From Streptomyces sp. NBC_01428 (GTDB lineage: Bacteria > Actinomycetota > Actinomycetes > Streptomycetales > Streptomycetaceae): a stretch of 64,000 nucleotides of DNA. Each line of letters starts with the position of its first letter. The stretch's first letter is position 1. The notes below the pieces were generated by a model. The model was not told the DNA's origin and ran no database searches. It saw only the letters and a list, made by a program, of their open reading frames with translations. The position numbers and the translations under genes are program-made. The stretch covers positions 7,440,001-7,504,000 of the forward strand of contig NZ_CP109499.1 of the NCBI RefSeq assembly GCF_036231965.1, written 5' to 3'. Positions 46,031-58,705 of the stretch are shown in pieces.

Positions 46031-46114
46031 GCGCAACCATCGAAAGGCCCCGCGCAACGAACATCCGCACCGCCGCGATGAACGCAACGATCTTGCGGAG
46101 ACGCGCAAGGTTGC
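46031..46114. promoter_or_regulatory. Phased CGCAAC motif array upstream of the amino-acid permease (putative AsnC/Lrp operator)
   Basis: The 481-base gap 45777-46257 has no supported gene. It contains GCGCAACCAT (46031), GCGCAACGAA (46052), ACGCAACGAT (46082) and GCGCAAGGTTGC (46103-46114). The third is part of a perfect inverted repeat CGCAA-N5-TTGCG at 46083-46097, and the fourth contains GCAA-GG-TTGC. The spacings are 21, 30 and 21 bases, close to whole helical turns, as expected for Lrp-type octamers. The same motif occurs upstream of davA. Operator function is inference. Confidence 0.55.
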
Positions 46115-46257
46115 TGCATTACGCCCGCGAAGCCCTGGCTCATAGGGTCAAGCGCTGTACACAGGCGTGGCGGGGACCCCGCTCGGTGGGTCCCTCCTGT
46201 CAGGGGTGCCGCCGGTCTCCGCCCTTTTCGACCGGCAGCGATGAAGGAGCCACCCGC

Positions 46258-47739
46258 GTGCTCGACCACGGCGCACCCCCGCAGTCCCGAACCACCTCGT
46301 CCCCACCGTCCCCGGGGTTCGGCGCGCGCCTGATGCGCCGCAAGCCCGTGGAACGCCTGGTCGCGGAGGGTGGCCAGGGCGAGGGAGGCTCGCTGCGCCG
46401 CTCCCTCGGGCTGTGGCAGCTCACGATGATCAGCATCGGTGCCACGCTCGGCACCGGCATCTTCGTCGTCCTCGGCGAGGCCGTCCCCAAGGCCGGACCC
46501 GCGGTCACCCTCTCCTTCGTGATCGCCGGCCTCACCGCGCTCTTCTCCGCCCTCTCCTACGCCGAACTGGCGGGCACCATCCCGGTCGCCGGGTCGTCGT
46601 ACTCGTACGCGTACGCAACGATGGGCGAACTGATCGCCTGGATCTGCGGCTGGTGTCTCGTCCTGGAGTACGGCGTCTCGGTCGCGGCCGTCGCGGTCGG
46701 CTGGGGCGAGTACCTGAACGAACTGCTCGACGGCACCATAGGCGTCACCATCCCGGACGCGCTGTCCGCGCCGCCCGGCGACGGAGGCGTCTTCAACCTG
46801 CCGGCCCTCATCGTCGTCCTGCTCGCCATGGCGTTCCTGCTCGGCGGGGCCAAGGAGTCGGCGCGCGCCAACACCGTCATGGTGACCGTGAAGATCGCCG
46901 CGCTGGTGATGTTCTGCGCGATCGGCATCCAGGGCTTCCGCTCGGGCAACTACGAGCACTTCATGCCGCTCGGCATGGCGGGCGTCAGCGCCGCCGGTGC
47001 CACGCTGTTCTTCTCCTACATCGGCTTCGACGCGGCCTCCACGGCCGGCGAGGAGGCCAAGGACGCGCAGCGCGACCTGCCGCGCGCGATCATGCTGTCG
47101 CTGGTCATCGTGACCGCGCTGTACGTCCTGGTCGCGGCCGTCGCCGTCGGTGCGAAGCCCTGGCGCCGCTTCAACGACTCCGAGGCCGCGCTCGCCGAGA
47201 TCATGAAGGACGTCACCGGTCAGACCTTCTGGGGGACGCTGCTGGCGGCCTGTGCGGTCATCGCCATCGCCAGCGTCGTGCTCACCGTGCTGTACGGCCA
47301 GACCCGCATCCTGTTCGCGATGTCCCGGGACGGTCTCGTCCCCAAGATCTTCGCCCGCGTCGACCCGAAGACCGGCACGCCGCGTGCCAACACGGTGATC
47401 GTCTCGCTGTTCTGCGGTGTCCTCGCCGCCGCGATCCCGCTCGGCCAGCTCGCCGACGCCACCAGCATCGGCACGCTCTTCGCCTTCGCGCTGGTCAACA
47501 TCGCCGTCGTGGTGCTGCGCCGGACGCGCCCGGGCATGCGCCGCACTTTCCGGGTCCCGCTCGCGCCGGTGCTGCCCGCGATCGGCTTCCTGCTGTGCCT
47601 GTGGATGATGGCCAGTCTCTCCGCCGTCACCTGGGTGGTCTTCGGTGTCTGGATGGCCGTCGGGCTCGTGTTCTACTTCAGTTACGGCTATCGCCGGTCC
47701 CGTATGGCGACCGCGGAGACCGTCTCCGAGCAACCGTAG
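46258..47739 (+). CDS. APC superfamily amino-acid permease (CAT/YfnA-like, probable cationic amino acids)
   Basis: 493 residues with about twelve membrane helices. After a polar N-terminus (GGSLRRSLGLWQLTMISIGA), the first helix carries the substrate-binding signature GATLGTGIFVVLGE, followed by FVIAGLTALFSALSYAELAG and the helix 6 motif FFSYIGFDAASTAGEEAKD typical of CAT-type transporters. GTG 46258 has AAGGAG 9 bases upstream and was preferred to starts further upstream that would put a basic non-conserved region first. An AsnC/Lrp gene follows 41 bases downstream. Together with the shared operator at davA this suggests lysine or another cationic amino acid as substrate; this is inference. 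Confidence 0.88.
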   Translation: MLDHGAPPQSRTTSSPPSPGFGARLMRRKPVERLVAEGGQGEGGSLRRSLGLWQLTMISIGATLGTGIFVVLGEAVPKAGPAVTLSFVIAGLTALFSALSYAELAGTIPVAGSSYSYAYATMGELIAWICGWCLVLEYGVSVAAVAVGWGEYLNELLDGTIGVTIPDALSAPPGDGGVFNLPALIVVLLAMAFLLGGAKESARANTVMVTVKIAALVMFCAIGIQGFRSGNYEHFMPLGMAGVSAAGATLFFSYIGFDAASTAGEEAKDAQRDLPRAIMLSLVIVTALYVLVAAVAVGAKPWRRFNDSEAALAEIMKDVTGQTFWGTLLAACAVIAIASVVLTVLYGQTRILFAMSRDGLVPKIFARVDPKTGTPRANTVIVSLFCGVLAAAIPLGQLADATSIGTLFAFALVNIAVVVLRRTRPGMRRTFRVPLAPVLPAIGFLLCLWMMASLSAVTWVVFGVWMAVGLVFYFSYGYRRSRMATAETVSEQP

Positions 47740-47780
47740 AACCCCCGCCAGGCACCTCGCAGAAAAGTGAACCACCCGCA

Positions 47781-48233
47781 GTGCTGAACGATCTCGACGA
47801 ACGCATCGTGCACGCCCTCGCCGAGGACGCCCGCCGCTCCTACGCCGACATCGGGCAACAGGTCGGCCTGTCCGCGCCCGCGGTGAAGCGGCGGGTCGAC
47901 CGGCTGCGGGCCACCGGCGCCATCACCGGGTTCACCGTCCGGGTGGACCCGGCGGCGCTCGGCTGGGAGACCGAGGGGTTCGTCGAGATCTACTGCCGCC
48001 GCAACACCTCGCCGGAGACGATCCAGCGTGGTCTCGAGCGGTACCAGGAAGTCGTGGCCGCCTCCACCGTCACCGGGGAGGCGGACGCGGTCGTGCAGGT
48101 CTTCGCCTCGGACATGCGGCACTTCGAGCGGGTGCTGGAACGGATCGCGGGGGAGTCGTTCGTGGAACGGACGAAGTCCGTTCTCGTGCTGTCGCCGCTG
48201 CTGCGGAGGTTTTCCTCGGGGTCACCCACGTAG
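47781..48233 (+). CDS. AsnC/Lrp family transcriptional regulator
   Basis: 150 residues. The N-terminal winged HTH (about 2-60) reads LNDLDERIVHALAEDARRSY, ADIGQQVGLSAPAVKRRVDRL. The C-terminal RAM domain (about 65-140) includes GFTVRVDPAALGWE and VVAASTVTGEADAVVQVFA. GTG at 47781 gives the canonical start. It sits directly behind the permease and is the best candidate for binding the CGCAAC arrays upstream of the permease and of davA. Confidence 0.92.
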   Translation: MLNDLDERIVHALAEDARRSYADIGQQVGLSAPAVKRRVDRLRATGAITGFTVRVDPAALGWETEGFVEIYCRRNTSPETIQRGLERYQEVVAASTVTGEADAVVQVFASDMRHFERVLERIAGESFVERTKSVLVLSPLLRRFSSGSPT

Positions 48234-48287
48234 GTGGGGCCCCCGTCAACGCCGTTGCGCCCAGCAGGGTGGGGGGTTCCCGCCGCG

Positions 48288-48345
48288 CGGGCGACTGCGG
48301 GTGGGTTGTGGCTGGTCGCGCAGTTCCCCGCGTCCCTGAAGGGCG
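48288..48345. repeat. Probable dispersed Streptomyces intergenic repeat
   Basis: The stretch containing GCGGGTGGGTTGTGGCTGG and TCGCGCAGTTCCCCGCGT resembles an intergenic element I know to recur many times in Streptomyces genomes. It lies between the convergent AsnC and GntR genes and abuts the GntR stop. Copy number cannot be tested from this window. Confidence 0.4.
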
Positions 48346-49086
48346 CTATTCGGCCGTCTGTCGTGCCAGGGCGTTGTTGTCCATCGAGTTGTGGACGCTG
48401 AAACTGACCGCGTCCGAGCGGTAGCGGTCGTCGGACCATTCGACCGGGCGGCCCTCGCGGGTGGTGGTGACGCGGCGGACCCGCAGCAGGGGGCTGGTGC
48501 GGCGGACGCCGAGGAGGTCGGCATCCTGCGCGCCCGCGGCGACGGCGTCGATGACGTGCTCGCCGTACGCGAAGACCAGCCCGGTGTCCTCGAAGAGGCG
48601 CTGTGTGACGGACGGGCACTCGGGCTCGATGGCCGCCACGGCGGGCGAGATCCAGTCCGCGTACACCGTGCGCTCCAGCAGGACCGGCTCGCCGTCCAGT
48701 CCGCGGACCCGCAGCACGTGCAACACCGGTGTCCTTTCCCGCAGTTGCAGCCGGACGGCGTCCGCCGCCGTGGCCGGAAGGTACTCCTGCGACACCACGT
48801 GCCCGGTCGCCTCGCGGCCCATCGCGCGCGCCCACTGGGCGAAACTGCGCAGCTCGGCGAAGCTCTGGCTGCGGCGGCTGGCCAGGACCACGCGGCGGGC
48901 GCCCTGGCGGGAGCCGATCAGCCCCTCGGCGGTCAGGGCCGCGACCGCCTGGCGGACCGTGCCGCGCGAGACGCCGTACTGGGCGGCGAGGTCGGTCTCC
49001 GCGGGCAGCAGGCTGCCCACGGTGTACTCCTCCCGGTCGATCGCCCGCCGCAGCTCCTCGGCGATCTCCTCGTGTCGCGCCGGCAT
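48346..49086 (-). CDS. GntR family regulator, HutC subfamily (UTRA domain)
   Basis: 246 residues. The winged HTH (about 5-68) contains LLPAETDLAAQYGVSRGTVRQAVAAL, and the UTRA effector domain (about 85-240) has GHVVSQEYLPATAADAVRLQL and RVTTTREGRPVEWSDDRYRS. It is divergent from the ABC importer genes. Position and subfamily parallel PhnR/PhnF regulators of phosphonate or phosphate-ester uptake. A palindrome ACTTGT-TCAG-ACAAGT in the shared promoter (49240-49255) is its likely operator. Confidence 0.88.
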   Translation of the reverse strand: MPARHEEIAEELRRAIDREEYTVGSLLPAETDLAAQYGVSRGTVRQAVAALTAEGLIGSRQGARRVVLASRRSQSFAELRSFAQWARAMGREATGHVVSQEYLPATAADAVRLQLRERTPVLHVLRVRGLDGEPVLLERTVYADWISPAVAAIEPECPSVTQRLFEDTGLVFAYGEHVIDAVAAGAQDADLLGVRRTSPLLRVRRVTTTREGRPVEWSDDRYRSDAVSFSVHNSMDNNALARQTAE

Positions 49087-49189
49087 GCTTCCCCTCAGCC
49101 TGGACCACTGTGCACAGCGTGATCACCCTAATCGACCGCGCGGCGCGATCCGCGTCTGCCGGAATTGTGCAGGGAACCAGGGGTCACGG

Positions 49190-49256
49190 TTTGGCCAAAG
49201 TTTACGAACAGGACACCAACGCCGGGCCTACTTGGGCCAACTTGTTCAGACAAGTT
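49190..49256. promoter_or_regulatory. Candidate GntR/HutC operators in the divergent promoter
   Basis: AACTTGT (49239-49245), TCAG and ACAAGTT (49250-49256) form an 18-base inverted repeat of the size and style of HutC-subfamily sites such as the DasR box. A half-site ACTTG lies 10 bases upstream (49230-49234). A separate 10-bp palindrome TTTGGCCAAA occupies 49190-49199. Assignment to the adjacent regulator is inference from position and symmetry. Confidence 0.5.
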
Positions 49257-49297
49257 CTCCGTACCACCACACCCTCGTGCGTCATCCTGGAGAGACC

Positions 49298-50455
49298 GTG
49301 ACCGTGTTCCTGCCGAGGACCGCCCTCCTCACCGGCGGCCTCGCCGTCGCCGCAGCCCTCACCCTGAGCGCCTGCGGCGCCGCCCCCGACGACAAGGCGA
49401 CCACCGCCGACGGCAAGAGCGCGGCCACCGCGACCTCCGCCGCGGACCTCGGCGGCCTCGACGCCCTGGTCAAGGCCGCGAAGAAGGAGGGCACGCTGCA
49501 CGCGATCGCCCTCCCCCGTGACTGGGCCAACTACGGCGCCCTGATCGACGGCTTCACCAAGAAGTACGGCATCAAGATCGATGTCGAGAGCCCCGACGGC
49601 TCCAGCCAGGACGAGATCACCGCCGTCACCTCGCGCAAGGGCCAGGACCGCGCCCCGGACGTCCTCGACCTCGGCAGCTCCTTCGCCCTGAGCGCCGCCC
49701 AGCAGGGACTGCTCGCCCCCTACAAGGTGGCCGCCTTCGGTGACATCCCCGAGGGCCAGAAGGACGCCGCCGGCCGCTGGTTCAACGACTACGGCGGCTA
49801 CATCTCCATCGGCTGCGACGCCAAGAAGGTCAAGGAGTGCCCGACGACCTTCAAGGACCTGCTCAAGCCGCAGTACAAGGGCCAGGTCGCCCTCAACGGC
49901 AACCCGACCAAGTCCGGTTCGGCGTTCGGCGGCGTGTACGCGGCCTCGCTCGCGAGCGGCGGCTCCTTCGACGACATCCAGCCCGGCCTCGACTTCTTCG
50001 CCAAGCTGAAGAAGAACGGCAACTACACGCCCGTCGAGTCGACCCCGGCCACCGTCGAGAAGGGCGAGACGCCCATCAGCATCGACTGGGACTATCTGAA
50101 CGCCGGTTACGCCGACGAGTTCAAGTCCAAGGGCGTCGACTGGAAGGTCGCCATCCCCTCCGACGGCCAGTTCGCCCAGTACTACTCCCAGGCCGTCAAC
50201 AAGGACGCGCCGCACCCCGCGGCCGCCCGCCTGTGGCAGGAGTACCTCTACAGCGCCGAGGGCCAGAACCTCTGGCTCAAGGGCTACGCCCGCCCGGTCC
50301 TGATGCCCGCGATGGACAAGGCCGGCACGCTCGACAAGACGGCCGCCGCGAAGCTCCCCGCGGTCACCGGGACGCCGAGCTTCCCGACCGAGGACCAGCA
50401 GAGCAAGGCCAAGACCGTGCTCGGTCAGGGCTGGGGCAAGGCCGTCTCCGGATGA
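49298..50455 (+). CDS. ABC transporter substrate-binding lipoprotein (iron/phosphonate/polyamine type)
   Basis: 385 residues. The signal peptide has lipobox LTLSAC (Cys26), followed by a Thr/Ala/Ser-rich linker and a type 2 periplasmic-binding fold of extracellular solute-binding family 1 (KEGTLHAIALPRDWANYGAL, GIKIDVESPDGSSQDEITAV, PTTFKDLLKPQYKGQVAL). GTG 49298 is preceded by GGAGAG. It is the first gene of an ABC operon (permeases overlapping by 4 bases) divergent from the GntR gene. The substrate is unknown. The family includes 2-aminoethylphosphonate-, iron- and thiamine-binding proteins. Confidence 0.88.
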   Translation: MTVFLPRTALLTGGLAVAAALTLSACGAAPDDKATTADGKSAATATSAADLGGLDALVKAAKKEGTLHAIALPRDWANYGALIDGFTKKYGIKIDVESPDGSSQDEITAVTSRKGQDRAPDVLDLGSSFALSAAQQGLLAPYKVAAFGDIPEGQKDAAGRWFNDYGGYISIGCDAKKVKECPTTFKDLLKPQYKGQVALNGNPTKSGSAFGGVYAASLASGGSFDDIQPGLDFFAKLKKNGNYTPVESTPATVEKGETPISIDWDYLNAGYADEFKSKGVDWKVAIPSDGQFAQYYSQAVNKDAPHPAAARLWQEYLYSAEGQNLWLKGYARPVLMPAMDKAGTLDKTAAAKLPAVTGTPSFPTEDQQSKAKTVLGQGWGKAVSG

Positions 50456-51360
50456 CCACCGCTCTCACCGAGGCCCCGGCCGACGTGGCGCCCGCCGCTG
50501 CCCCCCGGCAGCGGCGGCGCCGCCGCGCGCCCGGCTGGCTCGCCGTCGCCCCCCTGCTCGTCTTCGTGGCGATCGCCTTCGGCATCCCCGCCCTCGCCAT
50601 GCTCAACGGCGCTTTCACCGTCAAGGACCAGGCGACCGGCGCCAGTTCGTACACGATGGACAACCTGACCGGCTCGTTCCAGGGCGCCTACCTGACCGCC
50701 CTGATCGGCAGCGTCAAACTGTCCGCGGTCTCCGCGGGCATCGCGACCGTCCTCGGACTGCCGCTCGCCCAGGCCGTGGTGACCTCCCGCTTCCGCGCGC
50801 TGCGCGAGGCCGTGCTCACCGCCTCCGGCGTCCTCGCCAACTTCGGCGGCGTCCCGCTGGCCTTCGCCTTCGTCGCCACCCTCGGCAACTCCGGTGTCCT
50901 GACCCGGCATCTCGGCCTGGCCGACAAGGGCTGGAGCCTCTACAGCTTCTGGGGCCTGGTCATCGTCTACCTGTACTTCCTGATCCCGCTCATGGTCCTC
51001 ACCATCACGCCCGCCCTCGACGGACTGCGCTCGCAGTGGCGCGAGGCGGCGCAGAACAACGGCGCGACCTCCGTCCAGTACTGGCGGCACGTGGCCCTGC
51101 CCGTGCTCGCTCCCTCGCTGCTCGGCGGCCTGGTGCTCCTGTTCGGCAGCGCCTTCGCCGCGTACGCCACCGCCGCCGCCATGGTCGGCAGCGCCGTCCC
51201 GCTGGTCACCCTCCAGATCGCCGACGCCATCTCCGGCAACGTGCTGGTCGGCCAGGAGAACGTGGCGCTCGCCCTCAGCCTCGACATGGTCCTCATCGCG
51301 GGCCTGGTCATGGCCGTGTACCTGCCCCTGCAACGACGGAGCGCGCGATGGCTCGCCTGA
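50452..51360 (+). CDS. ABC transporter permease (first)
   Basis: 302 residues with six predicted membrane helices, the first near 28-48 (WLAVAPLLVFVAIAFGIPAL). The EAA loop that contacts the ATPase reads WREAAQNNGATSVQYWRHVALP. It overlaps the binding-protein gene by 4 bases (ATGA) and the second permease by 13 bases. It is the PotB/PhnU-like member of the pair. Confidence 0.9.
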   Translation: MTTALTEAPADVAPAAAPRQRRRRRAPGWLAVAPLLVFVAIAFGIPALAMLNGAFTVKDQATGASSYTMDNLTGSFQGAYLTALIGSVKLSAVSAGIATVLGLPLAQAVVTSRFRALREAVLTASGVLANFGGVPLAFAFVATLGNSGVLTRHLGLADKGWSLYSFWGLVIVYLYFLIPLMVLTITPALDGLRSQWREAAQNNGATSVQYWRHVALPVLAPSLLGGLVLLFGSAFAAYATAAAMVGSAVPLVTLQIADAISGNVLVGQENVALALSLDMVLIAGLVMAVYLPLQRRSARWLA

Positions 51361-52166
51361 ACCTGTGGCGCTGGGTGGTCCTCGCCCTCGCCGCGCTGTA
51401 CTTCCTGGTGCCCATGGCCGCGTCCGTGATCTTCACGGTCGACGTGCCCGGGCAGGGCGTCACCTTCGACGCCTACAGCCAGATCGTCTCCGCCGACGGC
51501 TTCGTCTCCAGCCTGCTGCTCTCGCTGGAACTCGCCCTCGCCACCATCGTCGTGGTGCTGCTCCTCATGGTGCCGGCCACCGTCGCGCTGCGGCTCGGCT
51601 CGCCCCGGCTGCGGCCGGTCGTCGAGGTGGTGTGCTCGCTGCCCCTGGTCGTCCCGCCGATCGCCTTCGTCGCCGGCATGGCCACCGTCCTCAAGTGGGG
51701 ACCCGAACATCTCTCGCGCACCCCGCTGTTCCAGACCTTCGTGGCCATCCAGAACCCGGACTTCCCGGTGGTGCTCGTCCTCGCGTACGTGGTGATGGCG
51801 CTGCCGTTCGTCTACCGGGCCCTGGACGCCGGACTGCGCGCCGTCGACGTGCGCACCCTCGTCGAGGCCGCCCGCAGCTGCGGCGCGAGCTGGCCGCAGG
51901 CGCTCGTCCGGGCGGTGCTGCCCAATCTGCGCGGCGCACTGCTCAACTCCTCCTTCCTCACCCTCGCCCTGGTGCTCGGCGAGTTCACGGTCGCCCGGCT
52001 CCTCGGCTACCAGCCGTTCGCCGTGTGGATCTACAACGTCGGCGGCTCGCAGGCCCAGATGTCCGTCGCCGTCTCCGTGCTCAGCCTGTTCGTCACCTGG
52101 GCCCTGCTCCTCGCGCTCGCCGGATTCGGCGGCCGCTCCCGTACCGCTTCCGCCTCCCGGGGATGA
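51348..52166 (+). CDS. ABC transporter permease (second)
   Basis: 272 residues with six predicted membrane helices starting WVVLALAALYFLVPMAASVIF. The EAA loop reads LVEAARSCGASWPQALVRAVLP. It overlaps the first permease by 13 bases and the ATPase gene by 4. It is the PotC/PhnV-like member. Confidence 0.9.
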   Translation: MARLNLWRWVVLALAALYFLVPMAASVIFTVDVPGQGVTFDAYSQIVSADGFVSSLLLSLELALATIVVVLLLMVPATVALRLGSPRLRPVVEVVCSLPLVVPPIAFVAGMATVLKWGPEHLSRTPLFQTFVAIQNPDFPVVLVLAYVVMALPFVYRALDAGLRAVDVRTLVEAARSCGASWPQALVRAVLPNLRGALLNSSFLTLALVLGEFTVARLLGYQPFAVWIYNVGGSQAQMSVAVSVLSLFVTWALLLALAGFGGRSRTASASRG

Positions 52167-53230
52167 CCATGACCCTCGCCACGCTCGAAAAGGCCGCCAC
52201 CGTCGAATTCCGCGGACTGCGGCGGGAGTTCGGTCCGACCGTCGCCCTCGACGGCCTTGACCTCACCGTCCGGCCCGGCGAACTCCTCGCCCTGCTCGGC
52301 CCCTCCGGCTGCGGCAAGACCACCGCCCTGCGCATGCTCGCCGGCTTCGAACACCCCGACTCCGGCGAGGTGCTGGTCGACGGCGAGGACGTCACCCGGG
52401 TCCCGGCGCACCGCCGCGACGCCGGGATGGTCTTCCAGTCGTACAGCCTCTTCCCGCATCTGAGCGCCGTCGACAACGTCGCCTTCGGGCTGCGGATGCG
52501 CAAGGTCCGCACGGCCGAACGGCGCGCTCGGGCCGCCGAGTTGCTCGACCTGGTCGGCCTCGCGGACAAGGGGGAGCAGTACCCGCACCAGCTCTCCGGC
52601 GGTCAGCAGCAGCGCGTCGCGCTGGCCCGCGCGCTCGCCCTGCGGCCCCGCGTGCTGCTGCTCGACGAACCGCTGTCGGCCCTGGACGCCAAGGTGCGCC
52701 TCTCGCTGCGCGAGGAGATCAGCCGCCTCCAGCAGGAACTCGGGATCACCACCCTGTTCGTGACGCACGACCAGGAAGAGGCGTTGTCCATGGCGGACCG
52801 GGTCGCGGTGATGCGGTCCGGGAAGCTCGAACAGTGCGCGGCGCCCGCCGAGTTGTACGGGCGTCCCGCCACCGCCTTCGTCGCCGAGTTCGTCGGCACG
52901 ATGAGCCGGATACCCGGGACGCTCGACGGCGAGTCGGTCGAGGTCCTCGGCCGGCGCCTGCCGGTGGACGGGGAGGCGCCCGCCGCACGGGAGGTGGACG
53001 TGCTGGTCCGGCCGGAGGCGGTACGGGTGAGCGCCGACGAGTCGGGTGACGCGCGGCTCGTGGCCACCGCGTTCCTCGGCGCGGCCACCCGGGTCACCGT
53101 GCGGCTCGCCGACGGCACCGAGGTCAAGGCCGACCTGCCCACGCACGAGGCCGCGGCCCTCGCGCCGGGCGCGCCCGTCACGGTCACCCTTCCGGAGCGT
53201 CCCGTGCTCGTCGCCGCCCGGACGAGCTGA
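52163..53230 (+). CDS. ABC transporter ATP-binding protein
   Basis: 355 residues. Walker A GPSGCGKTT is near 50, the Q-loop is in VFQSYSLFPHLS, the signature reads QLSGGQQQRVALARAL, Walker B LLLDEPLSALD and the H-loop TLFVTHDQEEALSMADR. A C-terminal TOBE/MOP-like regulatory domain (about 240-355) ends in VTVTLPERPVLVA. It overlaps the permease stop by 4 bases. A hairpin follows, so the HAD-EEP gene 1 kb downstream is probably on a separate transcript. Confidence 0.93.
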   Translation: MTMTLATLEKAATVEFRGLRREFGPTVALDGLDLTVRPGELLALLGPSGCGKTTALRMLAGFEHPDSGEVLVDGEDVTRVPAHRRDAGMVFQSYSLFPHLSAVDNVAFGLRMRKVRTAERRARAAELLDLVGLADKGEQYPHQLSGGQQQRVALARALALRPRVLLLDEPLSALDAKVRLSLREEISRLQQELGITTLFVTHDQEEALSMADRVAVMRSGKLEQCAAPAELYGRPATAFVAEFVGTMSRIPGTLDGESVEVLGRRLPVDGEAPAAREVDVLVRPEAVRVSADESGDARLVATAFLGAATRVTVRLADGTEVKADLPTHEAAALAPGAPVTVTLPERPVLVAARTS

Positions 53231-53246
53231 GGAGCGGCCGCCTCCC

Positions 53247-53275
53247 GGATCCGGTGCCGTCCGGCACCGGCATCC
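53247..53275 (+). terminator. Hairpin after the ABC operon
   Basis: CCGGTGCCG (53251-53259) and CGGCACCGG (53262-53270) are perfectly complementary. Outer GGAT (53247-53250) and ATCC (53272-53275) extend the stem past one bulged base. It lies 17 bases after the ATPase stop. Confidence 0.55.
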
Positions 53276-53465
53276 GGCGGGGCGGCCCGCCCCGAGACCG
53301 CGCCGGGCCGCACGTCCGCCGACCTCCCGGCGGACCGGCCCGGCCTCCGTGGCCGGGCGAGGGCCGCGGCGCGGCAGCGGCCCTCGCCCCGAGCCGTGCC
53401 ACGGCCCGGCGGCCTTCCGGCCGACAGCCTCCCGACCGGCGACTGCCGACCGGGCGACCACCTGC

Positions 53466-53702
53466 CGGGAGTCGTCCGGCCGGGAGCCTCCGATCGGAAG
53501 TCCCTCCGGTCGGGAGACCACTTGATCGGGAGCCTTCCGATTCGGGATCCCTTCGGTCGGGAGACCACTTGATCGGGAGCCTTCCGATTCGGGATCCCTC
53601 CGATCGGGAGACCACCTGACCGGGAGCCCTCCGATCGGGAGCCCTCCGATCGGGAGCCCTCCGGCCGGGAGACCACCTGTCCGGGAGCCGTCCGATCGGG
53701 AG
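53466..53702. repeat. Minisatellite of CGGGAG-containing units (47-bp and 15-bp tandem repeats)
   Basis: CGGGAG occurs 13 times between 53466 and 53702, mostly within imperfect palindromes such as CCGATCGGGAG. A 47-bp unit is tandemly repeated: 53508-53554 and 53555-53601 differ in one base near the end, and a diverged third copy occupies 53602-53647. A 15-bp unit CCGATCGGGAGCCCT repeats at 53631 and 53646. The unit of 47 is not a multiple of three, which argues against coding on either strand. Confidence 0.85.
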
Positions 53703-53900
53703 TCCTCCGGCCGGGCGGCCGCCCGTCAGGCGGCCTCTGCCGGAGGCGACCTGACCGGACGTCCTGCCGGGCGTGAGGACCTCCGACCGTGCGGCGTCCT
53801 GACCGGCGGCTGACGAGCCGGCGGTCATCCGACCGGGAGGTCTCCGGTCGGGCGGCCTTCTGCCGGGGGAACCTGACCAGAAGGTCCTCCGAGCGCGTGG

Positions 53901-54100
53901 CCTTCCGACCGGGCGGGCCACCGGATCAGACGTCCTTCCGGCCGGGAGGTACCCCTCTGCGGGGTGGCCTCCCGGCTCCACGGCCGCCCGACCGGACGGC
54001 CCTTCCGACCGGGCGGGCCACCGGATCAGACGTCCTTCCGGCCGGGAGGTACCCCTCTGCGGGGTGGCCTCCCGGCTCCACGGCCGCCCGACCGGACGGC
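53901..54100. repeat. Exact 100-bp tandem duplication
   Basis: Positions 53901-54000 and 54001-54100 are identical over all 100 bases, starting with CCTTCCGACCGGGCGGGCCA. Perfect identity indicates a recent duplication or ongoing homogenisation. A unit of 100 is not divisible by three, so any frame would shift between copies. Confidence 0.95.
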
Positions 54101-54268
54101 CAGATGAACGGGCAGCCTTCCGCCGGGCGGCCCCCCACGGGGCGGGTTTCCTGGCCGGGCGGCGTTCTGCCGGGAGCGTTCCGATCAGGAGCCTTCCGGC
54201 CTGGCGGTCGGGGACGCCCCCGTCCCCGACCGCCCCCCTCGCATCCCCCACCGACGAAAGAGACCACC

Positions 54269-55753
54269 GTGAGCCACCGCACCACCGCCCGACTCCCGCT
54301 CCAGGCCGTCCTGTTCGACATGGACGGCACGCTCGTGGACACCGAGCGACTGTGGTGGGAGGCGGTGGAACAGGTGGCCGACGGGCTCGGACACGCGCTC
54401 ACGGGGGCCGACCAGCCCGAGGTGCTCGGACGGCCCGTCGAGCACACCGCCTCCTGGCTGGCCGGCGTCACCGCGTCCCCGGCGGAGGCGATCGCCGCCG
54501 AACTCCACCGTGAGTTCGCGGACCGCGTCCGCACCGGCATCGTGCCCCGCCCCGGGGCGACCGAACTGCTCGACGCGCTCGCCCGCGAAGGCGTCCCCAC
54601 CGCCCTCGTCACCGCCTCCCCGCGCGCCGTCGCCGACACCGTGCTGGCGGCGCTCGGTGCCGAGCGCTTCGCCGTCTCCGTCACCGCCGACGACACCGAA
54701 CGCACCAAGCCCGCCCCCGACCCCTACCTCGCCGCCTGCCGCGCCCTCGGCGTCGAACCCGCCGCCTGCGTCGCCGTCGAGGACACCCAGACCGGCGTCA
54801 CCTCCGCCGAGTCCGCGGGCTGCGCCGTCCTCGCCGTGCCCTCGCTCGCGCCCATCGGCCCCGCCGCCGGACGCACCGTGCTCAGCAGCCTGGAGGAGGT
54901 GTCCCCGGCGCTGCTGCGTGCCATGGTCGCCCCGGCCGAGCTGCGGGTGCTGAGCTGGAACCTCTGGTTCGGCGGCACCAAGGTCGACGACCACCGCGCG
55001 AAGCAGCTCAAGGTCATCGCCGAGACGGGCGCGGACGTGGTCGGCCTCCAGGAGACGTACGGGGACGCGGCCCGCGAACTCGCCGAGGCCCTCGGCTGGC
55101 ACCACCACCGGGCGGGCGACAACCTCGGCGTCATCAGCCGCCACCCGATCGTCGCGCGGCTGGGCGACCCGGACGTCGGCTTCTACGGCGGCACCGGCGT
55201 CCGCGTCGAGCTGCCCGGCGGCCGGCGGGTGGACGTGTGGAGCGCCCACCTCGACTGCGCGCCGTACGGACCCTACGAGGCCCGCTTCGACGGGCTCCCG
55301 GCCGCCGAGCTGATCGCGCACGAGAGCGGGCGACTCGCCCGGATGCGCGAGATCCTGCGGATGATCGCCGACTCCACGGAGCCGGCCACGCCGGTCGTCC
55401 TCGTCGGCGACTTCAACGCCCCCTCGCACCGGGACTGGCCCGAGGTCGCGTGGCCGGTGACGCAGGCGGCCGAGGAGGCGGGCCTGCGCGACTCCTACCG
55501 CGAGATCCACCCCGACCCGGTGCGCGACCCGGGACACACCTGGTCGCCGGTCCACACCGACCACGAGGACGGCAGCGGGCGCCCCGAACCCCAGGACCGC
55601 ATCGACTTCGTCCTGCACCGCGGGCTGACCGCCCTCGACTCCCGCACCATCGTCAGCGGCACCCCGCGCTCCTGGCCCGATGTGGCGGGCAACGACTGGC
55701 CCTCCGACCACGCGGCGGTCCTCACCGCCTTCGGAGTGCCCCGCGGGGAGTGA
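54269..55753 (+). CDS. Fusion of HAD-superfamily phosphatase and EEP (endonuclease/exonuclease/phosphatase) hydrolase
   Basis: 494 residues in one frame. Residues about 9-212 are a HAD subfamily IA hydrolase: nucleophile motif LFDMDGTLVDTE, motif II TALVTAS, motif III ERTKPAPDPY and motif IV VEDTQTGVTSA, with an alpha-helical cap. Residues about 222-490 are an EEP-fold metal-dependent hydrolase: LSWNLWFGG, VVGLQE, SAHLDCAPYGPYEARFDG, VVLVGDFNAPSHRDW, RIDFVLHRG and WPSDHAAVLTAF. All catalytic motifs look intact. GTG 54269 follows AAAGAG; upstream codons come from repeat DNA. The pairing suggests phosphodiester cleavage followed by phosphate removal. Whether the ABC importer supplies the substrate is inference. 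Confidence 0.85.
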   Translation: MSHRTTARLPLQAVLFDMDGTLVDTERLWWEAVEQVADGLGHALTGADQPEVLGRPVEHTASWLAGVTASPAEAIAAELHREFADRVRTGIVPRPGATELLDALAREGVPTALVTASPRAVADTVLAALGAERFAVSVTADDTERTKPAPDPYLAACRALGVEPAACVAVEDTQTGVTSAESAGCAVLAVPSLAPIGPAAGRTVLSSLEEVSPALLRAMVAPAELRVLSWNLWFGGTKVDDHRAKQLKVIAETGADVVGLQETYGDAARELAEALGWHHHRAGDNLGVISRHPIVARLGDPDVGFYGGTGVRVELPGGRRVDVWSAHLDCAPYGPYEARFDGLPAAELIAHESGRLARMREILRMIADSTEPATPVVLVGDFNAPSHRDWPEVAWPVTQAAEEAGLRDSYREIHPDPVRDPGHTWSPVHTDHEDGSGRPEPQDRIDFVLHRGLTALDSRTIVSGTPRSWPDVAGNDWPSDHAAVLTAFGVPRGE

Positions 55754-55953
55754 CGGGAGGGGGGCCGGCGGCCGGGGCGCGCCGGCCCGCGCCGGAGCCC
55801 GGCCGGTCGTGGAACGCCCGGCGGGCTCCGGCACCGCCCGCGGCACGGGCGTCGCGTGAAGTGAGCCGCGCGTCACCGTGCCGTGACACCGAAACCCGCC
55901 TGTGACCTGCGTCTCCCCGCGTTCTCCGGGCGCATCGGGGCCCCCGGGCGGAC

Positions 55954-56016
55954 ACGCAACGAATCGCCGCCGGGGACCCGGCGCACGCAACGATTCGTTC
56001 GGTGGCGCGCAACGGG
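55954..56016. promoter_or_regulatory. Phased CGCAAC motifs upstream of davA (putative AsnC/Lrp operator)
   Basis: The 341-base gap 55754-56094 has no supported gene. It contains ACGCAACGAA (55954), ACGCAACGAT (55985; continuing as the palindrome AACGA-T-TCGTT at 55989-55999) and GCGCAACGGG (56007). The spacings of 31 and 22 bases match those upstream of the permease at 46031-46114. This points to a shared regulator, most simply the AsnC/Lrp protein encoded at 47781. Confidence 0.55.
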
Positions 56017-56094
56017 TCCTGCTTGTCCGGCCGAGGCCGCCGACCGTACCGTCTAACAAGCCCCCCAAACCCTCCGTACCGGTGGAGAACACGC

Positions 56095-56913
56095 ATGCGC
56101 ACAGCCCTGCTCCAGAGCTCCGGCCGCCCCGGCTCGGTCGCCGAGAACCTCAAGGTGCTCGACGACGCCGCGGGCCGCGCCGCCGCAGCGGGCGCAGGGC
56201 TCCTCGTGACCGCCGAGATGTTCCTCACCGGCTACGCCATCGGCGACGACATCGGCCGCCTCGCCGAACCCGCCGACGGCGACTCGGCCGACGCGGTCGC
56301 CGAGATCGCCGGGCGGCACGGCGTGGCCGTCGCCTACGGCTACCCCGAGCGCGGGCACGGCGAGGACTCCCCGGCCGACGGCGACACGGCCGACGTGTAC
56401 AACTCCGTCCAGCTGATCTCCGCCGACGGGACCCGGCTCGCGAACTACCGCAAGACCCATCTCTTCGGCTGCTTCGAGCGCGACCACTTCACGCCCGGCG
56501 ACCGGCCCGTCGTGCAGGCGGAGCTGAACGGCCTCCGGGTCGGCCTCATGATCTGCTACGACGTCGAGTTCCCGGAGAACGTCCGCGCGCACGCCCTCGC
56601 CGGCACCGACCTGCTGCTCGTCCCGACCGCGCAGATGCACCCCTTCCAGTTCGTCGCGGAGTCCGTCGTCCCCGTCCGCGCCTTCGAGAACCAGATGTAC
56701 GTCGCGTACGTCAACCGCACGGGCCCGGAAGGGGAGTTCGAGTTCGTCGGGCTCTCCACGCTGGCCGGCCCCGACGGAGTCGCCCGGGCCCGCGCCGGCC
56801 GCGGTGAGGAACTGGTCCTCGGCGACGCCGACCCCGTCCTGCTCGCGGCCTCGCGCGAGACGAACCCGTACCTCCAGGACCGCCGCCCCGGCCTCTACGG
56901 GTCCCTCGTCTGA
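56095..56913 (+). CDS. davA: 5-Aminopentanamidase (DavA-like, nitrilase superfamily)
   Basis: 272 residues of the carbon-nitrogen hydrolase superfamily. The catalytic triad is visible as Glu in TAEMFLTGYAIG, Lys in YRKTHLFG and Cys in MICYDVEFPEN. The sequence closely tracks Pseudomonas putida DavA, as I recall it, through EMFLTGY, YGYPERG, YNSVQLI and NYRKTHLFG. It would hydrolyse 5-aminopentanamide to 5-aminovalerate and ammonia. GGTGGAG precedes the ATG. The matching monooxygenase davB follows 82 bases later, which strongly supports the function. Confidence 0.88.
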   Translation: MRTALLQSSGRPGSVAENLKVLDDAAGRAAAAGAGLLVTAEMFLTGYAIGDDIGRLAEPADGDSADAVAEIAGRHGVAVAYGYPERGHGEDSPADGDTADVYNSVQLISADGTRLANYRKTHLFGCFERDHFTPGDRPVVQAELNGLRVGLMICYDVEFPENVRAHALAGTDLLLVPTAQMHPFQFVAESVVPVRAFENQMYVAYVNRTGPEGEFEFVGLSTLAGPDGVARARAGRGEELVLGDADPVLLAASRETNPYLQDRRPGLYGSLV

Positions 56914-56995: not shown

Positions 56996-58705
56996 ATGAC
57001 GTCCACCGTGCCCAACGCCGTCCAGCACGCCGACGTGCAGCAGCCGCCGATCACCATGTTCGGCCCGGACTTCCCCTACGCCTACGACGACTTCCTCGAG
57101 CACCCCGCGGGCCTCGGACAGATACCCGCGACCGAGCACGGCACCGAGGTCGCCGTCATCGGCGGCGGACTCTCCGGCATCGTGGCCGCGTACGAGCTGA
57201 TGAAGATGGGCCTCAAGCCCGTCGTGTACGAGGCCGACGAGATCGGCGGCCGGCTGCGCACCGTCGGCTTCGAGGGCTGCGACCCCTCGCTGACCGCCGA
57301 GATGGGCGCGATGCGCTTCCCGCCCTCCTCCACGGCCCTCCAGCACTACATCGACCTGGTGGGTCTCACCACCCGCCCCTTCCCCAACCCGCTCGCGGAG
57401 TCCACGCCCTCGACGGTCGTCGACCTCAAGGGCGAGTCCCACTACGCGACCTCCGTCGACGACCTGCCGCAGGTCTACCGCGACGTGATGAACGCCTGGA
57501 ACGCCTGTCTGGAGGACGGCGCCGACTTCTCCGACATGAACCAGGCGATGCGGGAGCGCGACGTGCCGCGCATCCGGGAGATCTGGGCGAAGCTCGTCGA
57601 GAAGCTCGACAACCAGACCTTCTACGGGTTCCTCTGCGACTCGGAGTCCTTCAAGTCCTTCCGGCACCGGGAGATCTTCGGCCAGGTCGGCTTCGGCACC
57701 GGCGGCTGGGACACCGACTTCCCGAACTCCATCCTGGAGATCCTGCGCGTCGTCTACACCGAGGCCGACGACCACCACCGCGGCATCGTCGGCGGCTCCC
57801 AGCAGCTCCCGCTGCGCCTGTGGGAGCGCGAGCCGGAGAAGATCGTCCACTGGGCTTACGGCACCTCGCTGTCGTCGCTGCACGACGGCACCCCGCGCCC
57901 GGCCGTGACCCGGCTGCACCGCACCGCGGGCAACGGCATCACCGTCACCGACGCGAACGGCGACATCCGGACCTTCAAGGCCGCGATCTTCACCGCCCAG
58001 TCCTGGATGCTGCTCTCCAAGATCGCCTGCGACGACTCGCTCTTCCCGATCGACCACTGGACCGCGATCGAGCGCACCCACTACATGGAGAGCTCCAAGC
58101 TCTTCGTCCCCGTCGACCGGCCGTTCTGGCTCGACAAGGCCGTCGACGACAAGGGGAATCCGACCGGCCGGGACGTCATGTCGATGACCCTCACCGACCG
58201 CATGACGCGCGGCACCTACCTCCTGGACGAGGGCCCGGACAAGCCCGCCGTCATCTGCCTCTCGTACACGTGGTGCGACGACAGCCTGAAGTGGCTGCCG
58301 CTGTCCGCGAGCGAGCGCATGGAGGTCATGCTGAAGTCGCTCGGCGAGATCTATCCGAACGTCGACATCCGGGCGCACATCATCGGCAACCCGGTGACGG
58401 TGTCCTGGGAGAACGAGCCCTACTTCATGGGCGCCTTCAAGGCCAACCTGCCGGGCCACTACCGCTACCAGCGCCGTCTGTTCACGCACTTCATGCAGGA
58501 CGGACTGCCCGAGGACAAGCGGGGCATCTTCCTCGCCGGCGACGACATCTCCTGGACGGCCGGCTGGGCCGAGGGCGCCGTCCAGACCGCGCTGAACGCG
58601 GTCTGGGGCGTCATGCACCAGCTCGGCGGCACGACCGACCCGACCAACCCCGGGCCCGGTGACGTCTACGACGAGATCGCGCCCGTCGAACTCCCCGAGG
58701 ACTAG
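56996..58705 (+). CDS. davB: L-lysine 2-monooxygenase (DavB-like flavin amine oxidase)
   Basis: 569 residues. The FAD-binding Rossmann motif is AVIGGGLSGIVAAYELMKMG with the following acidic YEADEIGGRLR. Family-specific segments shared with P. putida DavB are FGPDFPYAYDDFLEHPAGLG, MRFPPSSTALQHYIDLVGL, HREIFGQVGFGTGGWDTDFP and the C-terminal GDDISWTAGWAEGAVQTALN. It would convert L-lysine to 5-aminopentanamide, CO2 and water. A related tryptophan 2-monooxygenase activity is the main alternative. AAGGAG lies upstream of the ATG. With davA it forms the first half of the 5-aminovalerate lysine route. Confidence 0.87.
   Translation: MTSTVPNAVQHADVQQPPITMFGPDFPYAYDDFLEHPAGLGQIPATEHGTEVAVIGGGLSGIVAAYELMKMGLKPVVYEADEIGGRLRTVGFEGCDPSLTAEMGAMRFPPSSTALQHYIDLVGLTTRPFPNPLAESTPSTVVDLKGESHYATSVDDLPQVYRDVMNAWNACLEDGADFSDMNQAMRERDVPRIREIWAKLVEKLDNQTFYGFLCDSESFKSFRHREIFGQVGFGTGGWDTDFPNSILEILRVVYTEADDHHRGIVGGSQQLPLRLWEREPEKIVHWAYGTSLSSLHDGTPRPAVTRLHRTAGNGITVTDANGDIRTFKAAIFTAQSWMLLSKIACDDSLFPIDHWTAIERTHYMESSKLFVPVDRPFWLDKAVDDKGNPTGRDVMSMTLTDRMTRGTYLLDEGPDKPAVICLSYTWCDDSLKWLPLSASERMEVMLKSLGEIYPNVDIRAHIIGNPVTVSWENEPYFMGAFKANLPGHYRYQRRLFTHFMQDGLPEDKRGIFLAGDDISWTAGWAEGAVQTALNAVWGVMHQLGGTTDPTNPGPGDVYDEIAPVELPED

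Follow-up and report, generated by a model that had tools for sequence, protein, structure and literature searches.

Phased CGCAA arrays as probable operators of an Lrp-family regulator and likely activator of basic amino acid uptake and breakdown in Streptomyces

The 64,000-nucleotide stretch of DNA analysed here (the window; positions 7,440,001–7,504,000 of the 9.08-Mb, one-contig genome of Streptomyces sp. NBC_01428) carries two arrays of CGCAA sites, one in front of an APC-family amino acid permease gene and the other in front of a davA-like gene followed by davB. Both arrays are probably operators of Lrp1, an Lrp/AsnC-family regulator (47781–48233) whose gene starts 42 bp past the permease stop codon, and this protein would act as an activator of permease–lrp and davAB that responds to a basic amino acid, most likely lysine. 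Such a reading would supply the regulator, the operators and the probable promoters for basic amino acid catabolism in the majority of sampled Streptomyces genomes, together with an exact, testable rule for placing an Lrp protein to activate. The features concerned, given here as all genes and sites below in window positions, are as follows.

46032–46046, plus strand: outermost site of the permease array, CGCAACCATCGAAAG; read from the sequence, 21 bp before the next site and kept at that offset in relatives.
46053–46067, plus strand: permease array site 1, CGCAACGAACATCCG; sequence, genome pattern search and conservation.
46083–46097, plus strand: permease array site 2, the perfect 15-bp palindrome CGCAA-CGATC-TTGCG; sequence and conservation.
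46104–46118, plus strand: permease array site 3, CGCAAGGTTGCTGCA; sequence and conservation.
46119–46148, plus strand: proposed permease core promoter, TTACGC (46119–46124), 18 bp, TAGGGT (46143–46148); position kept in relatives.
46258–47739, plus strand: APC-family amino acid permease; PF13520, TIGR00909 above cut-off.
47781–48233, plus strand: Lrp/AsnC-family regulator Lrp1, the proposed cognate protein; PF13404, PF01037 and linkage in relatives.
55955–55969, plus strand: davA array site 1, CGCAACGAATCGCCG; sequence, genome pattern search and conservation.
55986–56000, plus strand: davA array site 2, CGCAACGATTCGTTC; sequence, genome pattern search and conservation.
56008–56022, plus strand: davA array site 3, CGCAACGGGTCCTGC, immediately adjoining the proposed −35; sequence, genome pattern search and conservation.
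56023–56052, plus strand: proposed davA core promoter, TTGTCC (56023–56028), 18 bp, TACCGT (56047–56052); hexamers kept at the same offsets in relatives.
56095–56913, plus strand: davA-like carbon–nitrogen hydrolase; PF00795, nearest solved relatives are amidases.
56996–58705, plus strand: davB-like flavin L-lysine/basic amino acid 2-monooxygenase; 769.5 bits against 3we0, 58% identity in the alignment.

The permease array consists of four sites spaced by 21/30/21 bp and the davA array of three spaced by 31/22 bp, measured start-to-start, which confirms the spacings given in an earlier sequence-only reading of this DNA. Three copies of the motif RCGCAAC that this reading had placed before davA are indeed present (55954, 55985 and 56007), and its single CGCAA-N5-TTGCG site was located at 46083–46097. 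Its four [AG]CGCAAC copies before the permease hold at 46031, 46052 and 46082, whereas the one at 46103 reads GCGCAAG (CGCAA at 46104–46108). In the window, about 7.7 kb of other genes separates lrp from the davA array.

Could the arrays be chance repetition of a common heptamer? Taken by itself, RCGCAAC does occur at background frequency in the window (20 copies against 19.45 expected, with 48 of 100 shuffles reaching 20). The three-site arrangement does not: CGCAA-N24–27-CGCAA-N14–18-CGCAA has just two matches genome-wide, namely the arrays described here, and its reversed control has none. The earlier reading had named a background frequency genome-wide as the outcome that would speak against it, and this thus describes the heptamer in the window, not the array. 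A version of the pattern with CGCAR sites, narrower gaps and a TT required 15 bp past the start of the third site gave 95 matches, spread over 61 Streptomyces genomes, where the reversed control gave 2; of these matches, four (G002:C229, G003:C4, G030:C33 and G058:C1) were judged to be chance, being unlike the rest in everything beyond the pattern. Since these counts far exceed their controls and the spacing is fixed across dozens of species, and at ddaH genes (see below) in other families as well, we reject chance repetition as having a negligible probability.

Conservation of the arrays was followed in the best 80 of at least 506 relatives found with Lrp1, all 80 being Streptomyces loci. Usable upstream regions were available for davA at 58 loci plus the window (59) and for the permease at 56 loci plus the window (57). 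Spacing of 31/22 bp is found in 57/59 davA promoters, the two others (L025 and L041) having no triple within one mismatch in all, and spacing of 30/21 bp in 55/57 permease promoters (31/21 in 2/57). The arrays are therefore conserved with fixed spacing before orthologous davA and permease genes, non-conservation having been the other outcome that would have counted against the earlier reading. At least two CGCAAC/GTTGCG motifs within 300 bp upstream occur at 57/59 davA and 36/57 permease genes, as against 0/58 for davB, 0/77 for guaB1 and 2/81 for lrp. The presumed core promoters keep their place too: counted from the first base of the innermost site, davA promoters have TTGTCC at +15 in 52/57 and TACCGT at +39 in 44/57, and at the same offsets the commonest hexamers of the permease promoters are TTACGC (20/57) and TAGGGT (35/57). 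With up to one mismatch, the outermost permease site is kept as CGCAR at its offset in 40/57 (mean over the tested offsets 6.8%, next best 25/57), and the middle permease site keeps the right half of its palindrome, TTGCG, in 48/55.

Presence and order of the genes tell a similar story. Among 150 sampled Streptomyces genomes, the Lrp query (E 1e-40) matches 147 and Lrp1 proper is found in 144; the best match in G028, G120 and G121 is only as strong as that of a second, 55% identical type, Lrp2. The davA gene (E 1e-60) is found in 139 of the 150, and five of the six genomes without Lrp1 also lack davA. Counted anywhere in the genome, chance matches included, the three-site pattern is present in 134 of the 150 genomes, namely in 127 of the 139 with davA and 7 of the 11 without. 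At six loci where davA is missing (L131–L135 and L145), the distance from the end of the array to davB is 134–361 bp in every case; five of these genomes lack davA altogether, and the sixth, G045, has a davA-like gene at another place. The pattern is also present in two further davA-less genomes, in G120 upstream of ddaH and in G130 where a contig ends. Four loci (L138, L139, L140 and L144) show lrp, array, davA and davB contiguously, with guaB1 upstream of lrp and one extra gene between these two in L138 and L140. No permease match, or only a fragment, stands beside lrp in 20 of the 80 loci, lrp itself being retained. Array conservation and linkage thus support the lysine uptake and breakdown regulon with an adjacent Lrp that had been proposed for this stretch, lysine itself being the probable rather than the observed ligand.

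A sister system provides a second instance of the layout. Lrp2, a paralogous Lrp that is 54–56% identical to Lrp1, is encoded upstream of ddaH, a gene for a dimethylargininase/arginine-dihydrolase-like protein (NF045659, 395.8 bits); at L151, where this was tested, an ornithine aminotransferase gene (TIGR01885) is also part of the locus. Lrp2-type matches (E 1e-60) occur in 211 of 392 Streptomyces genomes. In the 30 best of these loci, picked by protein alone, 31/21 bp is the best-fitting spacing in 28, of which 24 have three exact CGCA, and TT stands at +15 in 29; the array lies downstream of the Lrp2 gene, and a perfect fit is found in 0/115 random windows from the same loci. Over all 46 Lrp2 rows, ten of which were pattern-selected and six of which repeat a place, 31/21 is best in 44 and exact in 39. 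The NBC_01428 genome itself has a third match to the strict CGCAR pattern, at genome positions 7,746,507–7,746,575 on the minus strand (locus L226), which is the Lrp2/ddaH promoter with CGCAG sites between the two genes. At L136 (G120:C189), from a Streptomyces whose sole Lrp match at E 1e-40 is of the Lrp2 type, the sites before ddaH are CGCAA, not CGCAG, and the helix discussed below carries proline.

Several observations weigh against reading the arrays as Lrp1 operators. The three-site pattern has a real background, with 201 matches across the 150 genomes against 67 for the control, which itself occurs in 56 genomes. The strict three-site pattern is missing from twelve of the 139 davA-bearing genomes; at eleven of the twelve loci, davA or the permease is nonetheless preceded by a CGCAAY pair, and L141 has none. 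In G028, whose contigs are short, davA and an array lie near the edge of a short contig and there is no Lrp1 match. None of the 19 loci without a permease gene has an array before lrp (0/19), and Lrp1 is therefore not generally self-regulated through an array, an idea that was dropped for permease-less loci. The davA sites retain only the left half of the palindrome, the right half TTGCG being found in 0/57 at each of the three sites, which is unusual for a dimer site. Scanned strictly for sigma-70 promoters, the permease region yields none; the −35 and −10 elements are therefore proposals from position and conservation. Finally, in a search of 345 genomes of the class for sites spaced by 30/31 and 21/22 bp, the raw count outside Streptomyces did not exceed that of the reversed control (35 against 39, counted by hand). 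It is therefore the location of these matches, not their number, that is informative, and those linked to ddaH were found via the pattern rather than via all lrp–ddaH loci.

As to location, 24 of the 35 matches lie 38–184 bp before ddaH on the same strand, 23 of them with an Lrp gene (50–66% identical) no more than 1 kb away; at the remaining 11 neither gene is a neighbour. The 24 loci come from the families f4, f17, f18, f19, f26 and f31, of which f4 would be Mycobacterium to judge from gene order. Four f4 and four f17 loci show TTG at +15 and TA...T at +38 or +39; among 12 f19 loci, six have TCGATC at +15 and eight TACCTT at +39, and the f26 locus has neither. The middle site before ddaH keeps its palindrome in 22 of 24 pattern-selected loci. 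A fourth site, as at the permease, was looked for upstream of davA and ddaH and none was found.

In the 345 genomes of the class, davB (E 1e-120) is found in 52, and davAB genes are met outside Streptomyces as well. Nine of the 11 loci of family f17 have permease, davA and davB together (L160 and L166 are without the permease, and L166 starts at davB), and in ten an Lrp gene (59–61% identity) lies downstream of davB on the opposite strand, L165 being the exception. Pairs of (C/T)GCAA 31 bp apart precede davA in 6 of the 11 loci tested, ten from f17 and one from f28; this makes 6/10 of the f17 loci that have a davA match, and such a pair is absent from L158, L161, L167, L168 and L169. In a tree of 48 Lrp rows, which include 19 ddaH-linked Lrps from other genera than Streptomyces, the f17 davAB Lrps group with the f17 ddaH Lrps (83/87) and Streptomyces Lrp1 with the f19 ddaH Lrps (88/92). 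Both groupings are below the 95/80 mark and carry a long-branch warning, and the tree settles neither how often davAB-linked Lrps arose nor the direction or number of the duplications.

What ties the arrays to Lrp1 in particular? The presumed recognition helix of the aligned Lrps reads LS[APS][PST]AVKRR[VL]D. Lrp1 has proline in this helix and CGCAA sites. At the Lrp2 loci, after removal of repeats by hand, helix threonine is paired with a G as fifth base of the middle site in 25/26, helix serine with A/G/G over the three sites in 9/9 and helix proline with A in 3/4; the rows are related, and few independent changes stand behind the correlation. The helix of the other families has proline or serine, serine occurring with both kinds of site, and these loci were found by the CGCAA pattern and hence provide no independent test. 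We link the arrays to Lrp1 because of the conserved linkage, the paralogous Lrp2 with a like array before an operon for basic amino acids, and this correlation between helix residue and operator base. The alternative, that another, unlinked regulator binds the arrays and Lrp1 is a bystander, draws on the mostly asymmetric, directly repeated sites and on the fact that Lrp1 binding is here a prediction from sequence. It is nevertheless very improbable, given that arrays and Lrp genes occur together in six families including that of Streptomyces, through changing gene orders, and that the paralogue has a similar array whose operator base covaries with the helix.

A broader picture may be drawn more tentatively, at somewhat less than even chances: a single grammar, in which CGCAR stands three times, at 0, +30/31 and +51 to +53, and the −35 element begins 15 bp after the last of them, would have been kept in several actinobacterial families while its Lrp was duplicated and shared between arginine/ornithine and lysine catabolism, and the Streptomyces regulons would be separating by a change from CGCAA to CGCAG matched to one from proline to threonine in the helix, i.e. 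a specificity code. A cell with paralogous systems for lysine and for arginine, in which helix residue and operator base are correlated, would then represent a clean case of how duplicated regulators escape cross-talk.

From the observed sequences, geometry, conservation and linkage we infer the following mechanism. Dimers of Lrp1, held in an octamer-like assembly, would bind CGCAA sites that, lying two and three helical turns from one another, are on the same side of the DNA. With the innermost site abutting the proposed −35 hexamer, bound Lrp1 would probably recruit RNA polymerase and thus activate transcription in the presence of a basic amino acid, most likely lysine. The permease–lrp unit would thereby be switched on, providing uptake and positive feedback (in the window, lrp, which starts 42 bp past the permease, would be driven by the permease array as well), and so would davAB, whose products would convert lysine to 5-aminovaleramide and further to 5-aminovalerate. 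Lrp1 is probably one of a set of actinobacterial Lrp regulators that share a promoter layout, Lrp2 serving ddaH–rocD with nearly the same geometry.

Instead of activating, Lrp1 might bind the arrays as a repressor that lysine relieves. Lrp proteins can repress: in Streptomyces scabies, SCAB_Lrp2 is described as a repressor of its own gene and of the thaxtomin regulator gene txtR (PMC11609053, in the part available). This alternative is unlikely, if with a real chance of being right, as the innermost site abuts the proposed −35 without covering it and does so at the same offset in three types of Streptomyces promoter. In Mycobacterium tuberculosis, Rv2324, the regulator gene, is reported to be upregulated by arginine together with the rocD/Rv2323c cluster (PMC4569260, in the part available), a response that fits activation and derepression alike.

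As a regulator, Lrp1 is of a known kind. It has an N-terminal AsnC-type helix-turn-helix domain (PF13404, 59.7 bits) and a C-terminal PF01037 domain (50.7 bits), both above their gathering scores, and it falls below the curated cut-offs of the NCBIfam equivalogs AsnC, LysM, Lrp and LrpA (best NF008384, 70.6 bits against 227; LysM, 67.5 against 180). Well-studied Lrp/AsnC members are octamers made up of four dimers. For repeated sites, periodicities of 7–8, 18 or 30–31 bp are described (PMC8707732, in the part available). Like the local regulators of this family, Lrp1 is a small protein with a helix-turn-helix and a ligand-binding domain that goes with repeated, regularly spaced sites; unlike them, 30/31 plus 21/22 bp plus 15 bp to the proposed −35 recurs here in several families and two paralogous regulons. 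The regulator is thus of the Lrp local-regulator kind already known, and the promoter layout is unusually fixed. SCAB_Lrp and SCAB_Lrp2 share protein family, genus and response to amino acids with Lrp1, whereas their 18-bp sites as given in the accessible text, GTCCACGTCCCCGTCGAC and GGCCAACTGCCGGTCGAT, do not resemble the CGCAA arrays (PMC11609053). The Rv2324/Rv2323c–rocDE system is close in its arrangement, its regulator gene adjoining a ddaH-like gene and rocD/rocE as the f4 loci have divergent lrp, array and ddaH, followed in L275 by an aminotransferase-sized gene and a permease; it differs in responding to arginine, not lysine, and the part of PMC4569260 at hand describes no operator. 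In the open-licence literature, as far as this was searched in part, no description of the CGCAA operator layout or of davAB control in Streptomyces was found.

Which amino acid is meant has to be judged from the enzymes. The permease passes the TIGR00909 subfamily (610.8 bits, cut-off 556.8) and fails the CAT subfamily TIGR00906 (320.5 bits, cut-off 681.7), so that its substrate is not assignable to the CAT type, contrary to the label it had been given earlier. The davA product is probably a 5-aminovaleramidase, by sequence resemblance, and DavB has an Amino_oxidase domain (PF01593). We take davBA of Pseudomonas to be the counterpart of the window's davAB in lysine 2-monooxygenase chemistry. 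This likeness concerns the enzymes; as to gene neighbours, the window's davAB differs in having an APC permease and an Lrp. L-AAO/MOG of Pseudomonas sp. AIU 813, likewise of lysine 2-monooxygenase chemistry, is the 58% identical protein of 3we0; in the enzyme of Im et al. 2018, Asp238 is described as binding the side-chain charge next to an aromatic cage with Trp516 (PMC5832979, in the part available). With the residue numbering of L-AAO/MOG taken as chain minus 20, DavB keeps the equivalents of Asp238, Trp235, Trp418 and Trp516, with Ala515 replaced by Gly and Cys254 by Ala.

The same regulator and operators might serve a pathway for arginine, with an arginine 2-monooxygenase and a 4-guanidinobutyramidase as in arginoketide starter synthesis, or for ornithine. 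The homologous enzyme takes Lys, Orn and Arg (as a monooxygenase, with kcat/Km values of 74, 200 and 24 per s per mM, respectively, according to the accessible part of PMC5832979), an arginine monooxygenase and a 4-guanidinobutyramide hydrolase are known from azalomycin production (PMC5082578, in the part available), and the sister Lrp2 regulon is one for arginine/ornithine. Even so, this is unlikely, and lysine is favoured because window DavB keeps the residues of the lysine enzyme and an arginine-type paralogue with Phe516 appears to be separate: L176 (G434:C10:136000–150000), from another Streptomyces, encodes a second DavB, 60% identical and with Phe at 516, beside an arginase-family gene. 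It looks like an arginine monooxygenase of an arginoketide cluster, its surroundings resembling the arginine-to-4-guanidinobutyrate route of arginoketides as outlined in the available parts of PMC5082578 and PMC10322714. Moreover, the NBC_01428 genome carries ddaH for arginine. Read by eye, the neighbours of the L176 gene are genes for an acyl-CoA ligase, a LuxR-type regulator and polyketide synthases.

A wider regulon was sought in the NBC_01428 genome with the palindromic 15-mer and with a loose two-site search, and not found. The 15-mer with up to two mismatches gave 25 matches against 8 for the control, the permease site alone being exact. The two-site search gave 10 against 2, three in the two arrays and seven elsewhere; one of the seven has a matching spacing (22 bp), none is a three-site array and their surroundings are uninformative.

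Between lrp and davAB, the window encodes at 48346–50455 a regulator of the GntR/UTRA type, whose best NCBIfam match, PhnF, stays below its cut-off, and a solute-binding protein that resembles those for 2-aminoethylphosphonate, again below cut-offs; in the compact loci L138, L139, L140 and L144 these genes do not lie between lrp and davAB. The segments 53466–53715 and 53901–54101, between lrp and davA, contain tandem repeats of 15/47 bp (approximately CGGGAGCCCTCCGAT) and two identical 100-bp copies.

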